From an uncultured Clostridium sp. (GTDB lineage Bacteria > Bacillota_I > Bacilli_A > RF39 > UBA660), in assembly GCA_946414595.1 (NCBI GenBank), contig CAMKPE010000001.1, forward strand, positions 1 through 64,000: 64,000 nucleotides of DNA, read 5' to 3'. Made by a program: the position numbers and the translations under genes. The notes below the pieces were generated by a model. The model saw nothing but the letters and a program-made list of their open reading frames with translations. It was not told where the DNA came from and did no database searches. Positions 44,639-52,326 of the stretch are shown in pieces (position 1 is the stretch's first letter; every line of letters begins with the position of its first letter).

Positions 44639-44667
44639 TTGATTTTTTAAGGGTTTTGTGGTATAAT
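44639..44667 (+). promoter_or_regulatory. Promoter of the riboswitch transcript
   Basis: TTGATT (44639-44644) and TATAAT (44662-44667) with exact 17-bp spacing, just before the aptamer. Confidence 0.75.
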
Positions 44668-44676
44668 ATAGAACTT

Positions 44677-44769
44677 GTAAACGGGAGTAGTCCTTCAATG
44701 CAATACATCGACTATAAGTTTAACAATTACCGGTGTATTGGGGTAGCATATACTTGGACAAGACTTTAC
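44677..44769 (+). ncRNA. yybP-ykoY-type (Mn2+) riboswitch aptamer
   Basis: The conserved CGGGAGTAG near the 5' end, the perfect stem CAATACA / TGTATTG enclosing ATCGAC and ACCGG loops, and the 3' block ending GGACAAGACTTTA all fall in the order and spacing of the yybP-ykoY family. I compared it from memory with the Lactococcus structure-model RNA. P1 can form between GTAAA and TTTAC. The family binds Mn2+ (and Mg2+) and usually switches Mn exporters on. Here the downstream gene is not a transporter. Confidence 0.85.
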
Positions 44770-44790
44770 TATAAAGGTCTTGTCTTTTTT
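44757..44790 (+). terminator. Riboswitch-controlled terminator
   Basis: GACAAGAC (44757-44764) extends to TTTA, pairs with GGTCTTGTC (44776-44784) with a short loop, then six T residues. Its 5' arm overlaps the 3' strand of the aptamer (P1), so ligand-stabilised P1 and the terminator exclude each other. This predicts an on-switch. Confidence 0.85.
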
Positions 44791-44855
44791 GTACCTAAAA
44801 ATTACTTTTTTTCAAGGCCTTTATAAAAATTATTTTTTATGAAAGGGTGATGTAA

Positions 44856-45287
44856 ATGAAAAAAGTAACAGTATTCCTAGGAGGAACTTGTGCAGGTTCT
44901 AAATGGAGAGAGGAGTTATTACCAAAACTAGATTCTGAAAGAGTTGAAACTTACAATCCAGTTGTTCCTAATTGGACACCTGAATGTCAGGCTATTGAAG
45001 ATTTCCATAGAGAAACTGATGATGTATGTTTATATGTAATAACTCCAGAAGGAGAAGGTGACTATAGTTTCGTTGAAGTAACAGACGACAGTCATAAAAG
45101 ACCAGATAGTACAATCTTATGTGTCATTTATGAAGTTAATGGTGTAACATTCTCAAAACATAGAAAATCAACTGCTGAGAAGACATCTGACCTTGTACAA
45201 AAAAATGGTGTAGCTGTTGTAAAAGACTTAGACGAAGTAGCTTCTTTAATCAATAACTATTACGTTAAAAAATTAGAGAAGAAATAA
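44856..45287 (+). CDS. Nucleoside 2-deoxyribosyltransferase-like protein under riboswitch
   Basis: The 143-residue protein begins VTVFLGGTCAGSKWREELLPKLDSERVETYNPVVPNW and continues DDVCLYVITPEGEGDYSFVEVTDDSHKRPD. This matches the nucleoside 2-deoxyribosyltransferase-like family (GGTC...WR, NPVV, ITPE, SxxEVxxDS), which exchanges or cleaves the base of deoxynucleosides. The candidate nucleophile Glu is in FVEV. AAAGGGTGATG precedes the ATG. The Mn2+-type riboswitch ahead of it implies expression at high Mn2+, an unusual partner for that RNA. The exact substrate is unknown. Confidence 0.78.
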   Translation: MKKVTVFLGGTCAGSKWREELLPKLDSERVETYNPVVPNWTPECQAIEDFHRETDDVCLYVITPEGEGDYSFVEVTDDSHKRPDSTILCVIYEVNGVTFSKHRKSTAEKTSDLVQKNGVAVVKDLDEVASLINNYYVKKLEKK

Positions 45288-45292
45288 CCGAG

Positions 45293-45323
45293 AAACTCTA
45301 ACGAAAGTTAGAGTTTTTTCTTT
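45293..45323 (+). terminator. Rho-independent terminator
   Basis: AAACTCTAAC (45293-45302), loop GAAA, GTTAGAGTTT (45307-45316), T tract. Confidence 0.88.
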
Positions 45324-45342: not shown

Positions 45343-45978
45343 TTACCATCTCTTTCCATTATATACTTCACAATCTTGTTGGTCGACTTTATCTCTTTCG
45401 TCAAATGAATCATCTTTTTGTCCAGTTAATATTGTTTCAATTTCATCACCATCTGGACCACCATCGCCTCCACCATCATCATCGCCATCACCATCTTGCT
45501 GTTGTTGTTGACTAGAAGAATTTAAAAGCTTTTCAATTTCATTATAGAAGTTTTGTGCATCTTGGTTTTTACCTTTATTATCTTTTGTTGCACAATTATG
45601 ATCTAGAAGTATTTCTTGAATCTTTTTTAAGTCTCTTACAATAGTATCTTTATTATCCATATCTACTAATTGGAACTTTGCAAAAGATAGGTTAACTATT
45701 ACTTTGCATCGTCTATCACCTGATACAGTTTTTAATGCTTCTTGATATTCGCTAACTGCTTCTTCATATTTTTCTTCTTGATATAAACTGTTTCCTTTAT
45801 TGTAGTGAACTACGTAGCTTTGAGGGAAATTAAGTACATGTAAGACATCAACTATATTATTGTTATAAATTCCATTATTATACTTACTGATATATACTTC
45901 ATTTAAGAAATATCTTATTGTTAAATGAAGACTAAATACAAATAAGAAAATGTATATTCCATAAATCCATTTTTTCAT
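45343..45978 (-). CDS. TPR membrane protein of the Bat operon
   Basis: An N-terminal membrane helix (4-24) precedes a tetratricopeptide repeat pair (VVHYNKGNSLYQEEKYEEAVSEYQEALK, about 56-84). A Gln/Asp/Gly-rich, acidic tail follows (SSSQQQQQDGDGDDDGGGDGG). This is the BatC-like member of MoxR/VWA operons. Its start overlaps the VWA gene upstream by four bases (ATGA), with GGAGG before it. It is the last gene of the six-gene minus-strand unit. The function of such operons is not settled; membrane or envelope stress has been proposed. Confidence 0.8.
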   Translation of the reverse strand: MKKWIYGIYIFLFVFSLHLTIRYFLNEVYISKYNNGIYNNNIVDVLHVLNFPQSYVVHYNKGNSLYQEEKYEEAVSEYQEALKTVSGDRRCKVIVNLSFAKFQLVDMDNKDTIVRDLKKIQEILLDHNCATKDNKGKNQDAQNFYNEIEKLLNSSSQQQQQDGDGDDDGGGDGGPDGDEIETILTGQKDDSFDERDKVDQQDCEVYNGKRW

Positions 45979-46922
45979 TGATACATCCTCCTATCTATTC
46001 CTAATTCTACTAAGAATAATGCAATTAATAGAGGAGTAAAGTAATAATAAATATCTTTATATGCTTGTTCTTTATCTTGATCATTAAAATCTCTCATATC
46101 TAATATTTGCTTTAATTTAGATTTAACATTACTTTGTTTATCCATATGAATGTAATCAATTCCTAAATCATTTGCCATTTGTTTTAAGTTCTTTTCATCA
46201 ATTTTTGATATTGCGTCGGTATATGGATAATTTGTTTTATCTTGCAAGTATTCATATTTACCACTTTGATAATATGTTTCAACTTTCATTCGTCCGCCTT
46301 CTTCAGTTCCATATCCTAAAACGGCACCATTATCAACATAGTCTCTTAAATCACTTAATGATTGAACTTCTTCATCTGTTGTATTTTCACCATCAGTTAT
46401 TATGAATACAATCCTTTGTCTATCTTCTTTCTTTCTAGAAGATTCAAGTACTTTTTTTAAATCTTCTTTGAACATTGTTATTGTACTACCTTTAGCAGTA
46501 CATTGCTCTGGTGTTTTTAATGATTTAACAGATGCCATTATAGTTTTACTATCTTTTGTAAGTGGCATCTTTATTTGTGAATATATATCGAATGCAATAA
46601 CTGAATAAGTAGATCCACTTAATTCGTCTACGATATATTGAACATCTTTTTTAACTGCATCTAATCTTTTTGTGCCACCCTCATAATCTAAGGCATCCAT
46701 TGAAATTGTTTTATCAATAACAAATATTACATCTAAGTTACTTTTTAATACTTCTACTTCACCATCAGGTATTCTAAATCTTAAGTTAGTTACAAATAAT
46801 AGAGCAATTATTAATAGTCTTATAATTAGTTTTGCTTTCTTTGTATATATTATTGTATAAACTGTTAATCCAATTGCTATTGGTAGTATAAGCCATATAG
46901 GTATTATTGGAGATATTATCAT
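45975..46922 (-). CDS. Membrane VWA-domain protein (BatA/BatB-like)
   Basis: Two N-terminal helices (about 8-25 and 32-46) precede a von Willebrand A domain with the MIDAS-type DKTIS at 70-74, a conserved Thr-region at IAFDIYSQIKMPLT, and FIITDGENT. A C-terminal helix lies near 293-308. The first MIDAS Ser is Thr, which may still bind metal. It overlaps both neighbours (ATGA junctions). It belongs to the MoxR-DUF58-VWA unit and probably acts in a MoxR-assembled membrane complex. Confidence 0.85.
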   Translation of the reverse strand: MIISPIIPIWLILPIAIGLTVYTIIYTKKAKLIIRLLIIALLFVTNLRFRIPDGEVEVLKSNLDVIFVIDKTISMDALDYEGGTKRLDAVKKDVQYIVDELSGSTYSVIAFDIYSQIKMPLTKDSKTIMASVKSLKTPEQCTAKGSTITMFKEDLKKVLESSRKKEDRQRIVFIITDGENTTDEEVQSLSDLRDYVDNGAVLGYGTEEGGRMKVETYYQSGKYEYLQDKTNYPYTDAISKIDEKNLKQMANDLGIDYIHMDKQSNVKSKLKQILDMRDFNDQDKEQAYKDIYYYFTPLLIALFLVELGIDRRMYQ

Positions 46923-47923
46923 GATAACACCACCTTATCTACCACTATTAAACCTGCAAAGCCTAATATTAAGAATACAAATGCAACTTCTGGGTGATCT
47001 GTAGATATAGTCTTTTTACCACCTTCAAGGATTGATTTTTCTTGTGATTCTATACCACTTACTATTTCATTAATAGTTGATCCTTTACCTTGTACAAAGT
47101 AGCTACCACCAGTTGATTCAGTAGCTTCTTTTAAAGTAGTTCCAAAGTTTATTGCAGTTTCTTTTGGTGCAACTGAATATACTACTATTCCTTTTTTCTT
47201 AGCTAGTTTAGCAGCATCAGTAACATTTATATATTCTTTACCTTGAACATCGTTATCTGTTGAAAAAACAATTATTCTTGATCTTTCTTCATCTAAATCA
47301 GGAAAATCAAAAATACATGAAGCAAGACCATCTCCAACTAGAGAACTACCTCTTGTATTGTTTCCTACTAAAGTACCATATAGTAAGTATCTATTGTAAT
47401 ATAAATACTCTTCACCATGGTGATCAGTTGTATTATTGTTTAAAGCTTCAGATAAAGTGTTTAAATTATCTGCTATATAATCATAATCTTCTGTTAAAGG
47501 AACTAAAGTATACGAAGAAGTATTGAATATTGAAATACCAAATCTTTCTCCATTTAATGAGTTAACAACTTCTTTATAAGTATCAACTAGTTCTTTATTT
47601 AAGTCATTAACAGATGTTGATATATCCATACATAGAATAATATCTCTATTGTATACCGCATTATCTTCTGTTCTTGTTTTAACAACTCTAGAAGTCATTA
47701 TTGATGAAGTAAGAACACATATAAATACAACTGCATAAATACCATAAAGACCCATTCTATATTTTTTAATAATATCTTTATAAATATTTGATTTTTTAAT
47801 TATTGAAGTATTTGCAACTTTCTTTTTATTTTTCTTGCTTCCTTTTCTTGATAATGCCAAAAACATAACAAGAACAAATGCTATAATACTAACAATAATT
47901 ATCCAAGGGGCTTTTATTTCCAT
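46919..47923 (-). CDS. Membrane VWA-domain protein, second copy
   Basis: An N-terminal helix (5-25), a second (57-73) and a C-terminal helix (about 313-332) flank a VWA domain. The MIDAS motif DISTS (100-104) is canonical, followed by GISIFNTSSYTLVPLT and IIVFSTDNDVQG. This copy keeps the full DxSxS motif. GGGAGGTAATAG lies before ATG 47923. It overlaps the DUF4381-like gene by ten bases and the next VWA gene by four. Confidence 0.86.
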   Translation of the reverse strand: MEIKAPWIIIVSIIAFVLVMFLALSRKGSKKNKKKVANTSIIKKSNIYKDIIKKYRMGLYGIYAVVFICVLTSSIMTSRVVKTRTEDNAVYNRDIILCMDISTSVNDLNKELVDTYKEVVNSLNGERFGISIFNTSSYTLVPLTEDYDYIADNLNTLSEALNNNTTDHHGEEYLYYNRYLLYGTLVGNNTRGSSLVGDGLASCIFDFPDLDEERSRIIVFSTDNDVQGKEYINVTDAAKLAKKKGIVVYSVAPKETAINFGTTLKEATESTGGSYFVQGKGSTINEIVSGIESQEKSILEGGKKTISTDHPEVAFVFLILGFAGLIVVDKVVLS

Positions 47924-48378
47924 TTTTCTATTACCTCCCTTGTTCTATCTATTGATGCAAGAATATCTCCAGTTCCTTCTCTTGAGAATTCTGGTTCATA
48001 ATATTCTTCAACTAACTTTGTTAAATTATCCATCTTTAATGTTTTAATTTCGCTTAAAGTATATTTCATAACATCTATACTTGTAGCTTCATTAACAAAT
48101 GATCTTATTATTGAACTTAATTCATTATAAGCTTTTCTTTGACTAAGCTTCTTATTATTAACTTGTTTCTTTAAACTATCTATTTTAGATAAATAACTAT
48201 GTTTAATTAAGAAAACATTCTTAGGTCTATAATTAATTACTATCTTTGGTGCATCTTTCTTCTTAATTACAAGTATATAGACTAAGTAAGCTACTAAAAT
48301 GACAATTAAAAGAACTAGGAGTATGACTCCTAGGATTGAATAACTAAATGGTTCTTGAAACTTAACGTCTGACTGCAT
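47914..48378 (-). CDS. DUF4381-like membrane protein of the MoxR operon
   Basis: A single membrane helix (about residues 12-38, YSILGVILLVLLIVILVAYLVYILVI) is followed by a basic helical cytoplasmic domain of about 110 residues. Its pattern SQRKAYNELSSIIRSFVNEATSIDVMKYTLSEI is typical of the small protein between DUF58 and VWA genes in MoxR operons. It overlaps the DUF58 gene by 17 bases and the VWA gene by ten. The role is unknown. Confidence 0.65.
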   Translation of the reverse strand: MQSDVKFQEPFSYSILGVILLVLLIVILVAYLVYILVIKKKDAPKIVINYRPKNVFLIKHSYLSKIDSLKKQVNNKKLSQRKAYNELSSIIRSFVNEATSIDVMKYTLSEIKTLKMDNLTKLVEEYYEPEFSREGTGDILASIDRTREVIEKWK

Positions 48379-49237
48379 TGTTATGCCTCTCTAATAATTC
48401 GATTAATTTAGAAACAATTTCACTTTTAGAGTTTATATCTTCAACAGTTATTCTATATTTCTTTAAAAGTGCTGTTTTCTCTTCGACTATTTTATTTCTT
48501 TCTATGTCTTCTATTTCTTTTATTTTTTCATTTTTAGTTATAAATGATGGTAAATCTCTTCTTTCATCGATATCAAACATTCCAGATCCGAATAAAGAAG
48601 CATCACTTATATTTACAAATAATAAGTCATGAGCTAAAGTTGCTTTTTTAATTATATTTTCTTCAATTGAATTAAGTCCTGCTATATCTGATATTACTAC
48701 AAATATCATTCTTCTTTTTGAATGGTTAAGTGCATAATCAATTAGTTCATTTATTGTATGAGTATTCTCATCTTCTAAATGTTTTTCTAAATCAACTAAA
48801 TTTATTTCTAAGTTAGTTAATCCACTTTTAAATGGACTCATATATAATGTGTTATTTTTACTGAAAACACATGATACTTCATCTTCATTTTTATTAACTA
48901 GATATGCAAGTGTTCCAAATGTATATAAAGCAGTTTCTGCTTTTTTTTCATCGTTTTTGTTAAAACCACTCATCTTAACGCCTGAATCCATAATGAAAAC
49001 AATATTATGTCTTTTAAATGCGACATAACGTCTTACCAGTAAGGACCCATGTCTTATAGAAGATTTCCAGTCAATGTCTTTACTATCGTCACCTAAAACG
49101 TAATCTCTTAAGTCATCGAAATCTAGACTTCTTCCTTTAAATATTGACCTATATAAACCATCTAACAAGTTTGCTGTTTTTTTACTTGCACTAATGCTTA
49201 TATTTGCCCTTATTTTGTCTACATTATGTAGCATCAT
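48362..49237 (-). CDS. DUF58-domain protein
   Basis: The DUF58 core is plain: GRSLDFDDLRDYVLGDDSKDIDWKSSIRHGSLLVRRY (36-72), followed by a VWA-like half, HNIVFIMDSGVKMSG. There are no membrane helices. DUF58 proteins are constant partners of MoxR ATPases. Here the start overlaps the MoxR stop (49234-49236), so translation is coupled. The molecular role is unknown. Confidence 0.88.
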   Translation of the reverse strand: MMLHNVDKIRANISISASKKTANLLDGLYRSIFKGRSLDFDDLRDYVLGDDSKDIDWKSSIRHGSLLVRRYVAFKRHNIVFIMDSGVKMSGFNKNDEKKAETALYTFGTLAYLVNKNEDEVSCVFSKNNTLYMSPFKSGLTNLEINLVDLEKHLEDENTHTINELIDYALNHSKRRMIFVVISDIAGLNSIEENIIKKATLAHDLLFVNISDASLFGSGMFDIDERRDLPSFITKNEKIKEIEDIERNKIVEEKTALLKKYRITVEDINSKSEIVSKLIELLERHNNAVRR

Positions 49238-50226
49238 GGTGTATCTACTGCTCCTAAGATAGCATCGATAACTTTTTCAACATTTATTCCATCTGCAACA
49301 GCAGCATAGTTTAAAGTAACTCTGTGTCTTAAGATACTGTAAATTAAAGCTTTGCAATCATCTGGAGTAACATAGTTTCTTCCATTTAATACTGCAACTG
49401 CTTTTGCTACATTCATTATTGCTATAGTTCCACGTGGACTTGATCCCATTTCAACATATTTAGCAATGTTTTTAGGAAGCATAGTAGCTGCATTTCTTGT
49501 TGTATAAATGATTCTTGCAATGTATCTTTTTATTTCTTCATCTACATAAACTCTTCTTGTAACATCTTGTAAGAATAGAATTGAATTGATATCCAATATA
49601 GCTGGATTATTATCAATAATTCCTGATTCCATTCTGTTTAAGATTTCCATTTCTTCTCCAACACTTGGATAATCAATGATTTCTTTTAATAAGAATCTGT
49701 CTAATTGAGCTTCTGCAAGTAGGTAAGTTCCTTCTTGTTCAATTGGGTTTTGTGTTGCAATTACAATGAATGGTTTCATCATTTCATAAGTAACACCTGC
49801 AATACTTAATTTACGCTCCTGCATAACCTCTAGCATGGCACTTTGTGTTTTAGCACTTGATCTGTTTACCTCATCTAGCAAAACGAAATTGGCATAAACT
49901 GGTCCAATTTTAGTTTCGAATTGGTTAGTAGAATAATTAAAGATCTGAGTACCAACAATGTCACTTGGAAGTAAGTCTGGAGTACATTGAATCTTTGCAA
50001 ATTTACCTGCTAAAGCATCTGTTAATACTTTAGCTGCAGTAGTTTTAGCAAGTCCCGGTACAGATTCAAGAAGAATATGCCCATTTGCCATAAAAGCTAC
50101 TAAAAGTGCAGTTTTTAAATTCTTTTGCCCAACTATTCTTTCTTCATAATAATTAGATAATGTATCAATTATCTTTTTTGCTTGTTCCATTTCTTCAACG
50201 GAAATATTTTTTAATTCACTATTCAT
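49234..50226 (-). CDS. MoxR-family AAA+ ATPase
   Basis: Walker A is ESVPGLAKT (54-62), Walker B VLLDEVNRS (115-123), and QNPIEQEGTYLLAEAQLDRF (sensor 1 and the MoxR insert) follows. MoxR proteins are AAA+ chaperones that help insert cofactors or assemble complexes, often with VWA proteins. At 330 residues it is standard. Its ATG is preceded by AGGTGTGA, and it is the first gene of the minus-strand unit reaching 45343. The region upstream faces the SipW operon. Confidence 0.93.
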   Translation of the reverse strand: MNSELKNISVEEMEQAKKIIDTLSNYYEERIVGQKNLKTALLVAFMANGHILLESVPGLAKTTAAKVLTDALAGKFAKIQCTPDLLPSDIVGTQIFNYSTNQFETKIGPVYANFVLLDEVNRSSAKTQSAMLEVMQERKLSIAGVTYEMMKPFIVIATQNPIEQEGTYLLAEAQLDRFLLKEIIDYPSVGEEMEILNRMESGIIDNNPAILDINSILFLQDVTRRVYVDEEIKRYIARIIYTTRNAATMLPKNIAKYVEMGSSPRGTIAIMNVAKAVAVLNGRNYVTPDDCKALIYSILRHRVTLNYAAVADGINVEKVIDAILGAVDTP

Positions 50227-50516: not shown

Positions 50517-51083
50517 ATGAAAAAGAAAGACTATTTATTAATTATTTTATTATTACTAGTTGGAATCACTGGTATCTATGTAGGAAGCACTTACGCTAAA
50601 TATGTAGAACAACTAGATGAAAAAACTGGTGATGCTGTTATAGCTAAATGGAACTTTAGTGGAGATAACGAAAACGTATCTATGGATATTGATTTCACTA
50701 ATACATATGATCCTGATACATTAGTAGCACAAAGAATTGCTCCAGGAACTGAAGGAGAATTTGTTATTGAATTATTCAATACATCAAGCGAAGTTGGTAT
50801 TGACTATGAAATAGCATTTGGAACTGCAACTGGTAAAGCTGCAAGTTTAACATTCTATGATGCAAATGATCAAGAAATCGACATCACAAGCGATACATTA
50901 TCAGGAAATCTTGCTGTTGGTGAAAATGCAGAAATTAGAATTAAATGGGCATGGGCATATGATGTTAGTGCTGAACAAGATGCAGCTGATACAGCATTAG
51001 GAACTGCTGGTGGAGAAAGTGGAACTAAATTATCAATTCCTATAACTATCACTGGTACTCAAACACAACCTGTAGAACAATAA
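50517..51083 (+). CDS. Camelysin/TasA-like secreted protein with SipW-type signal
   Basis: The N-terminal helix (4-24) ends in GSTYAKY, the cleavage-site pattern of SipW-dependent precursors. The following beta-rich domain (NVSMDIDFTNTYDPDTLVAQRIAPGTEGEFVIELFNTSSEVGIDYEIAFG) matches the TasA/camelysin fold: A-PGxxGxF...NxxSxxxxxY. It should be processed by the SipW homologue encoded at 51874 and may form surface fibres. AGGAGGACGG precedes the ATG. Tandem hairpins after the gene probably attenuate transcription into the rest of the operon, so this gene is likely the most expressed. Confidence 0.85.
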   Translation: MKKKDYLLIILLLLVGITGIYVGSTYAKYVEQLDEKTGDAVIAKWNFSGDNENVSMDIDFTNTYDPDTLVAQRIAPGTEGEFVIELFNTSSEVGIDYEIAFGTATGKAASLTFYDANDQEIDITSDTLSGNLAVGENAEIRIKWAWAYDVSAEQDAADTALGTAGGESGTKLSIPITITGTQTQPVEQ

Positions 51084-51110
51084 TAAACAAAAGATAAAAA
51101 GGGGAATAAA

Positions 51111-51160
51111 TGGAAGTTTTTTAACTTCCATAAGTGAAATAGCCAAAAGCTATTTCTTTT
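51111..51160 (+). terminator. Tandem hairpins (partial terminator) inside SipW operon
   Basis: TGGAAGTT (51111-51118) pairs with AACTTCCA (51123-51130). GAAATAGC (51136-51143) pairs with GCTATTTC (51149-51156), followed by TTTT. Both lie between the first substrate gene and the next gene. They could set a strong-first, weak-rest expression ratio or protect the first mRNA from 3' decay (inference). Confidence 0.6.
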
Positions 51161-51187
51161 ATGGAAACTAAAAAGAAAGGACATCAT

Positions 51188-51874
51188 ATGAAAGATTTTT
51201 TTAAAGATGTAAAATCATGGCTAATTATTTTACTACTTATAATCTTAATTATATTGTTACTTATCCCTAGTTGTACAAAAAAAGAAGAGGGAAATGGTGC
51301 AATGCCAACAGGTAACTTTGACATATTTGAAATAGGATTAGATTGTTACCCTCGTGGAAAAGATCCAGACGGTAAAGAAATAGATGTTGATATAGAAGAT
51401 TTACCTGTCTTTGATGAGGTAGAAGATAAGTATGTTTTAAATAAAATATATGTTGATGATAAAAATGGAGATTATATCTATCAACAAAACTTAGAGATAT
51501 TCAATAATGCAGCATATGAATATACAAACAAAATTGCACCAGGAGTATCAAACGTATATAACTTTGTAGTACACAATAGTTCAAATGGTACTGCAGCATA
51601 CAGATTCTTGATGTATGAAAATACAGAATATTCAGTAAATTTAAAATATAGATTAAAGAAAAATGGTTCATATATAATAGGAAATGAGAATAATTGGGTA
51701 AGTGCAGATGAATTAAATGTTGGATTAAGTAACCTAGCAAAAGATTCAAGAGATAAATATGCACTTGAATGGAAATGGTTTGATGACGATGAAAACGATA
51801 CAATAGCAGGAAAGAATATGACTAGTGCTTATAAACTAAATATTAGATTCTACATAGAATATACTAAAGTATAA
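51188..51874 (+). CDS. Membrane-anchored protein of the SipW operon
   Basis: A membrane segment (about 12-28, WLIILLLIILIILLLIP) ends at SCTKKEEG; the Cys after LLLIPS could be a lipobox-like site, though imperfect. The exterior domain contains ITNKIAPGVSNVYNFVVHNSSNGTAAYRF, which has the camelysin-like APGxxxxFxxxNSS pattern, so it may be another member of the fibre family. I take ATG 51188 because AAAGGACATC lies upstream; the earlier ATG at 51161 has no ribosome site and follows a hairpin. The stop overlaps the sipW start. Confidence 0.72.
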   Translation: MKDFFKDVKSWLIILLLIILIILLLIPSCTKKEEGNGAMPTGNFDIFEIGLDCYPRGKDPDGKEIDVDIEDLPVFDEVEDKYVLNKIYVDDKNGDYIYQQNLEIFNNAAYEYTNKIAPGVSNVYNFVVHNSSNGTAAYRFLMYENTEYSVNLKYRLKKNGSYIIGNENNWVSADELNVGLSNLAKDSRDKYALEWKWFDDDENDTIAGKNMTSAYKLNIRFYIEYTKV

Positions 51875-52326
51875 TGAAAAAAATAGTTTGGATAGTTATA
51901 TCAGTTATAATCGTTATATTTATCTTGCTAAACATATTTTCAATCACTAATACATCTTTATTTGGTTATAGGATATATAAAGTTGGTTCAGGAAGTATGG
52001 AGCCAACTTTAAAAGTAAATGACCTAATAATTGTAAAAGCCTGTGATGAATATAAAGAACAAGATATCGTCACATATGAAGTAAACAAACAAATAGTAAC
52101 TCATAGAATAATTTCTATTAATGATGAATTTGTAACAACTCAAGGAGATAATAATAAAGTAGAAGATTTACCTTTTAAAAAAGATTTTATTATAGGTAAG
52201 ATGGTATTAAAATTAAGTCTTTTACCAATGATTATGGCATTTATATTTAATCCTCTTGTATGGGGATCAGTTATAGTATGCGCAATATTATATATTATTA
52301 ATGATAGTAGAAAAGCAAAACATTAG
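51874..52326 (+). CDS. sipW: SipW-type signal peptidase I
   Basis: An N-terminal membrane helix (4-24), catalytic Ser41 in GSGSMEPTL, His77 in VTHRII, and a C-terminal double hydrophobic region (about 112-143) are present. The His replaces the Lys of standard bacterial signal peptidases, as in the ER-type SipW group, which matures TasA-like precursors. The neighbours on both sides encode such precursors. The start overlaps the previous stop by one base (TAATG). Length is 150 residues, compact for the family. Confidence 0.88.
   Translation: MKKIVWIVISVIIVIFILLNIFSITNTSLFGYRIYKVGSGSMEPTLKVNDLIIVKACDEYKEQDIVTYEVNKQIVTHRIISINDEFVTTQGDNNKVEDLPFKKDFIIGKMVLKLSLLPMIMAFIFNPLVWGSVIVCAILYIINDSRKAKH

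Follow-up and report, generated by a model that had tools for sequence, protein, structure and literature searches.

A yybP-ykoY-type leader with a replaced discriminator base precedes a PF15891 gene in an uncultured RF39 bacterium

Results

Organization of the locus

The window analysed in this work comprises 64,000 nt of contig CAMKPE010000001.1 (assembly GCA_946414595.1), from an uncultured Clostridium sp. (Bacillota_I; Bacilli_A; RF39; UBA660). In positions 44639–45287, a promoter is followed by a ~180-nt leader and a 143-codon ORF. The features recognized at this locus are the following:

44639–44667, plus strand: promoter TTGATT-17-TATAAT with an extended −10 TG (signal scan and position in the orthologues)
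44677–44683, plus strand: 5′ strand of P1.1, the switch helix (GUAAA plus G44683), partner 44765–44769 plus C44764 (covariation in alignment A2)
44683–44689, plus strand: 5′ strand of L1, GGGAGUA, the yybP-ykoY signature (near-invariant in alignments A2 and A4)
44690–44693, plus strand: 5′ strand of P1.2, GUCC, pairing with GGAC at 44756–44759 (GUUC/GAAC in relatives)
44694–44700, plus strand: 7-nt linker at the usual site of P2 (P2-less, three-way-junction form)
44701–44740, plus strand: P3, formed by P3.1 (44701–44710/44731–44740) and P3.2 (44718–44719/44729–44730) (A2 helices 3 and 4, and folding)
44711–44717, plus strand: metal-sensing loop L3, ACUAUAA (UCAAUUC in L. lactis), with U44713 at the position of the Mn-sensing A41
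44741–44755, plus strand: P4 hairpin, GGGUA-GCAUA-UACUU
44756–44790, plus strand: intrinsic terminator, 5′ arm 44756–44767, loop 44768–44773, 3′ arm 44774–44785 and U-tract to 44790 (scan)
44760–44764, plus strand: 3′ strand of L1, AAGA(C), conserved as C[A/G]AGAC (near-invariant in A2 and A4)
44813–44825, plus strand: segment after the terminator, CAAGGCCUUUAUA, able to form 13 bp with 44770–44782
44841–44849, plus strand: Shine-Dalgarno region GAAAGGGUG (read from the sequence)
44856–45287, plus strand: regulated gene (ORF 44856–45284 plus stop) for a 143-aa PF15891 (Nuc_deoxyri_tr2) protein with an NDT/YtoQ-like fold
45294–45320, plus strand: probable terminator 3′ of the gene, CTCTAACGAAAGTTAGAG followed by a T-run (by eye; absent from the scan output)

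Given the probable terminator at 45294–45320, the PF15891 gene is probably transcribed alone, as a single-gene transcript. The minus strand of the adjacent region (45343–50226) carries a cluster that includes a TPR protein, identified with Pfam; by eye, two vWA-like proteins, a DUF58-like protein and a MoxR-like ATPase were also recognized in it, in a BatA/BatB-type layout. A TasA/SipW-like cluster of secreted-protein and signal-peptidase genes was likewise recognized by eye at 50517–52326.

The arrangement given in the original prediction, in which a promoter leads into a folded aptamer and then into a terminator incompatible with it, all before the gene, was confirmed. Taken alone, the promoter of the window is at chance level (7 sites found vs. 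4.3 expected in the region); the orthologues carry a TTGACA-17/18-TATAAT-like promoter at the same position. The leader (44668–44800) folds with z = −3.3, none of 200 dinucleotide shuffles being equally stable, and its only terminator, a 12-bp stem (44756–44785) followed by a T-run, compares with 0.3 expected by chance. The 5′ arm of this terminator takes in the whole 3′ strand of P1.2 and the greater part of that of P1.1. Since these strands lie within the arm or at its edge, the aptamer fold and the terminator are mutually exclusive.

The leader is a homologue of the yybP-ykoY family

The window leader has L1 (GGGAGUAG with CAAGAC), an L3 placed between P3.1 and P3.2, and helices P1.1, P1.2, P3 and P4, which are the features used to recognize members of this RNA family. 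L1 is near-invariant among the relatives (GGGAGUAG with C[A/G]AGAC), and their L3 starts with UCA or ACA. In the orthologues, L3 also sits between P3.1 and P3.2, and the 3′ strand of P3.2 runs straight into P3.1. In the window copy, P3.2 is weak, with two pairs, and P3.1 shows compensated (paired) changes. The P2 helix and the four-way junction are absent, the 7-nt linker forming no hairpin; none of the seven PF15891 leaders has a P2, and each carries a 7-nt linker in its place. Linkers of at most 9 nt also occur outside the bacterial family of the window, in 28 of 66 relatives, many of them 5′ of P-type ATPases, and because they are common in the class, P2 was not treated as defining. A joint loss of P2 and P4 was considered as a novelty and discarded, since the window retains P4 and members lacking P2 are common in the class.

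The search with the yybP-ykoY covariance model of Rfam, RF00080, was formally negative, but this model performs poorly in the class. It gave no match over the cut-off in the window, none at E ≤ 10 when run against just the leader and none in the source genome, and it left the orthologous leaders unscored. Across 149 class genomes it reached the cut-off in none and E ≤ 0.001 in six; the loci found below the cut-off include ones located before MntP and exchanger genes (L015 and L018), with scores of 24–34 bits. Since RF00080 misses typical members in the class, its negative result is uninformative for the window leader.

Only seven leaders of the PF15891 gene, and no Rfam input, went into model R1; its match on the window leader spans 44671–44771. 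R1 recognized loci detected by RF00080 (L018 and L022, E = 1.8e-6; L015, 2.8e-4), as well as L021 (3.8e-4) and L020 (9.5e-4), and found matches in 23 of the 386 genomes of the window's bacterial family. Model R2, a refined version built from the 34-sequence alignment A2, matched seven RF00080-detected loci with E-values from 1e-14 to 5.5e-7, and 106 of 395 class genomes were positive. Paired cells make up 96.2% of A2; the corresponding figure is 75.4% for shuffles and does not exceed 49.1% for slid structures. Double-sided changes number 144, vs. 44 in shuffles. A2 was fitted to the model and so favours the structure; both kinds of control nevertheless fall far short of it. Double changes affect five of the six pairs of P1.1 (helix 1 in A2), and the P1.2 pair at columns 24–134 is changed on both sides in 14 sequences.

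The first downstream genes of 67 loci matched by R2, all outside the window's family except L079, were sorted by motif into 30 P-type ATPase-like, 12 CaCA-exchanger-like, 5 MntP-like and 20 other genes; the last set includes further P-type ATPases, CNNM/CorC and SPFH genes. In L079, from the window's own family, the leader lies 5′ of a CaCA exchanger. Pfam searches with ten representative downstream genes confirmed Na_Ca_ex, Mntp, E1-E2_ATPase and CNNM/CorC, among others. The cross-detection of known-type Mn loci by R1 and R2 and the transporter contexts across the class firmly establish that the window leader is a genuine homologue of the yybP-ykoY family, lying below Rfam detection. The yybP-ykoY-type aptamer with a terminator platform that had been proposed is supported.

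The discriminator base is replaced in the window copy

L3 reads UCA41AU43UC in L. lactis and ACA48U49ACU52 in X. oryzae; its adenosine (A41 and A48, respectively) is described as invariable and gives Mn2+ a selective N7 contact (PMC6754395). At the matching site the orthologues have UCACUAC, UCAACAC, ACAAUUC and ACAUUUC, and the discriminator is an A in L007 and L024. Position 41 was scored in 106 aligned members (A in 102, U in 3 and G in 1). The three U-bearing members, the window (ACUAUAA) and the sister sequences L036 and L038 (ACUAUAU), represent two lineages; the L036/L038 leader precedes a lipoprotein-like gene, which in L038 has no Pfam match. A pattern search of the 386 family genomes gave no further U-type member supported by the model. 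Another L3 variation was observed in L044, L046 and L050 (AUAACAC/AUGACAC), where C40 is replaced by U and, in L050, A41 also by G.

The switch had been described as Mn2+-type, an attribution that is not supported for the window copy, where U44713 takes the place of the Mn-sensing A. The window copy lacks two features of the Mn2+-specific class, the discriminator A and a Mn export or transport target, and given the U at the discriminator we do not file it as a Mn2+-specific sensor. Mn2+ is most likely the ligand of the orthologues; judging from its loop, the window copy probably has a weaker, less selective or altered metal response.

The ACUAUA loops of the window and L036/L038 may define a specificity variant, which, instead of Mn2+, would sense another divalent ion or any of them, or would respond at a different set point. 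The hexamer is present in two unrelated contexts (the PF15891 gene and the lipoprotein-like gene), and specificity variants of yybP RNAs were expected by Sherlock and Breaker (PMC7266159); the literature searched, mostly without subscription papers, contained no published specificity variant of yybP-ykoY. The small number of sequences and lineages, and the outcome of the pattern search, weigh on the other side. That the window copy is an ordinary Mn2+ riboswitch, in which the U is tolerated and Mn2+ is sensed as in the orthologues, seems rather unlikely to us. It would agree with the retention of all the other core features, with the paired changes in P3.1, which indicate selection on the structure here as well, and with the L. 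lactis A41U variant, studied by experiment and simulation, whose simulated RNA still holds the metal at the site (PMC9190785). However, in X. oryzae the A48U change abolished the stably docked state with Mn2+ (PMC6754395), and the A is conserved in nearly all the aligned relatives. Decay of the riboswitch, with the sensor lost and the gene mostly off or constitutively attenuated, is improbable: the discriminator has changed and P3.2 is reduced to two pairs, but the promoter, L1, P1, P4, the terminator, the post-terminator complement and the reading frame are intact, and P3.1 is maintained by paired changes. A new riboswitch class that resembles yybP-ykoY by coincidence, to which the lack of an Rfam match and the unusual target genes could point, is hardly credible and was rejected, since the independent model reaches known-type Mn loci with E-values down to 1e-14 and the transporter contexts extend across the class.

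Predicted switching mechanism

The leader (44668–44790) is a three-way-junction member of the yybP-ykoY family that very likely acts, by analogy with the characterized RNAs, as a transcriptional ON switch. L1 and L3 would dock around a divalent metal and stabilize the P1.1/P1.2 helix, which would withhold the 5′ arm of the terminator and let the RNA polymerase continue into the PF15891 gene; when no ligand is bound, the 12-bp terminator would form. Readthrough would free the 3′ arm of the terminator to pair with 44813–44825, and this pairing may lock the ON fold and shield the ribosome-binding site from the arm. The mutually exclusive pairings are present in the leader; we infer that a metal drives antitermination from the characterized yybP-ykoY RNAs, such as that of L. 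lactis, in which Mn2+ binding leads to the formation of P1.1 and the terminator is prevented (PMC11087558). Energy rules that include neither tertiary contacts nor the ligand favour the OFF fold of the window leader by ~13 kcal/mol, and an OFF fold preferred without ligand fits what a ligand-dependent ON switch requires. Against the ON-switch model we weighed the failure of RF00080 to detect the leader, the discriminator change, the weak P3.2, this same OFF bias, the non-metal target, the finding that mntP of the source genome has no leader of this type, and Shine-Dalgarno masking by the post-terminator segment that does not exceed that in shuffled spacers.

A post-terminator segment complements the terminator arm

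The segment at 44813–44825, situated between the U-tract and the Shine-Dalgarno sequence, is complementary to the loop and the 3′ arm of the terminator (44770–44782). Of the 38 family leaders, 21 show complementarity to their own terminator at p ≤ 0.05, and 15 reach p ≤ 0.01; in other families, 7 of 60 do so at p ≤ 0.05 (Mann–Whitney p = 3e-7, an optimistic value since the sequences are related). The segments of the family leaders differ in sequence, each matching its own terminator arm. Because it is transcribed after the termination decision, the segment cannot decide termination. A role as an anti-Shine-Dalgarno element was rejected, the accessibility of the Shine-Dalgarno sequence without the terminator arm being 0.50, vs. 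0.49 in shuffled spacers. Modelling gives modest support to a family-wide role in keeping the freed terminator arm off the Shine-Dalgarno sequence (vs. shuffles, p = 1.8e-4 in the window's family and 0.72 elsewhere); for the window leader virtually no change is predicted (0.02).

The regulated gene and its product

The ORF matches Pfam PF15891 (Nuc_deoxyri_tr2) over the cut-off (E = 3.4e-8). Its AlphaFold model is confident (pLDDT 90) and finds as best structural match 4MCJ, a putative nucleoside deoxyribosyltransferase (Z 13.1, rmsd 2.4, 120 aligned, 14% identity), followed by YtoQ (8OF6, Z 12.8); small GTPases reach Z 10 against the model, on the same common fold. The Pfam hit and the 4MCJ fold match uphold the expectation of a nucleoside-deoxyribosyltransferase-like gene downstream of the leader. 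The window protein has E74 (SxxE motif), the putative catalytic residue and putative counterpart of the usual NDT nucleophile; in two of 11 homologues (L014 and L098) it is replaced. Searches with the protein against PDB sequences, NCBIfam and PHROGs returned nothing useful. Our best guess from the model is that the protein may be a nucleotide- or nucleoside-handling enzyme. The link between Mn2+ and deoxynucleoside handling that had been drawn from this gene is unproven, PF15891 being a fold-level assignment in which the putative nucleophile is not invariant.

Among 59 relatives, protein and leader coincide in one other genome: it alone encodes the protein (62% identity), and it alone carries the leader DNA (76%). 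Six further loci with both parts (L005–L007 and L009–L011) came from genome contigs. The RNA-gene pair is present in at least six distinct lineages, counting the window and G029. PF15891 homologues with no detected leader are mostly distant (L012–L014, L097–L099), yet L008 and L095 are close homologues that also have none detected. Eleven other genomes of the window's genus have neither the leader nor the protein; hence, the pair is patchy. Viral contigs yielded no relative of the protein; the RNA pattern matched them seven times, and on visual inspection these matches were put down to chance.

Targets of related leaders in the bacterial family

The statement that yybP-ykoY RNAs normally control Mn transporters holds for the whole class and fails for the window's bacterial family, in which most of the targets found are non-transporter genes. 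The model matches in this family precede lipoprotein-like genes, an AdoMet-decarboxylase-like gene (L037), an SPFH gene (L046), an NfeD-like gene (L039, by eye) and several genes for proteins with no Pfam match. One genome of ~1.1 Mb (G468) has six yybP-type leaders, each at a different gene, lipoprotein-like and SPFH-like genes among them (loci L033, L049, L051, L053 and L068 are those named). The source genome has one leader copy, and its mntP is not preceded by a leader of the yybP type; an R2 match near mntP (E = 0.0017, filters off) falls within the neighbouring coding sequence, not before mntP, and was judged to be due to chance.

SPFH/Band_7-type genes are a recurrent target in the class, lying 3′ of such leaders in several of its families (L046, L068, L104, L120 and L130; Pfam-confirmed only for L046 and L104). 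S-adenosylmethionine-decarboxylase-like targets, which were unexpected, occur at L037 (PF02675) and L041 (by eye).

Discussion

Our analysis goes beyond the original prediction in three respects: U44713 at the discriminator, the mostly non-transporter targets in the window's family, and the terminator-complementary segment in many family leaders. It is conceivable, although we offer it as a speculation, that this bacterial family turned the yybP-ykoY aptamer into a general regulator of non-transport genes, with up to six copies per genome, some of them, the window copy included, retuned in the ion they sense by natural replacement of the discriminator, and many provided with a second complementary segment that captures the freed terminator arm ahead of the ribosome-binding site.

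At the window locus the discriminator base has been replaced naturally, and close orthologues with the A form lie before the same gene. Given that the Rfam model misses this RNA in much of the class, the known regulon is underestimated. In addition, for several protein families outside the reach of Pfam, the predicted metal-linked regulation offers an initial hint at function.

The protein shares its predicted fold with the nucleoside 2-deoxyribosyltransferase superfamily (4MCJ, YtoQ 8OF6, PF15891) and differs from it in the low identity (14% with 4MCJ) and in the putative glutamate, which is not invariant among the homologues of the window protein. With regard to the RNA, the P2-less members of the class (e.g., L071 and L073, located 5′ of P-type ATPases) likewise have a short linker at the site of P2, a P4 and the same L1; in contrast to the window copy, they combine an A at the discriminator with a metal-transporter target. 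Compared with the RF00080 aptamers of L. lactis yoaB and X. oryzae, the window leader has the same L1 (GGGAGUAG with CAAGAC), P1.1/P1.2 and P4, the same P3 with a seven-nucleotide L3 followed directly by P3.2, and a P1.1 that overlaps the terminator. It differs from them in lacking P2, in falling below Rfam detection, in its PF15891 target, in having a U in place of the Mn-sensing A, and in carrying, after the terminator, an additional segment able to pair with its arm.
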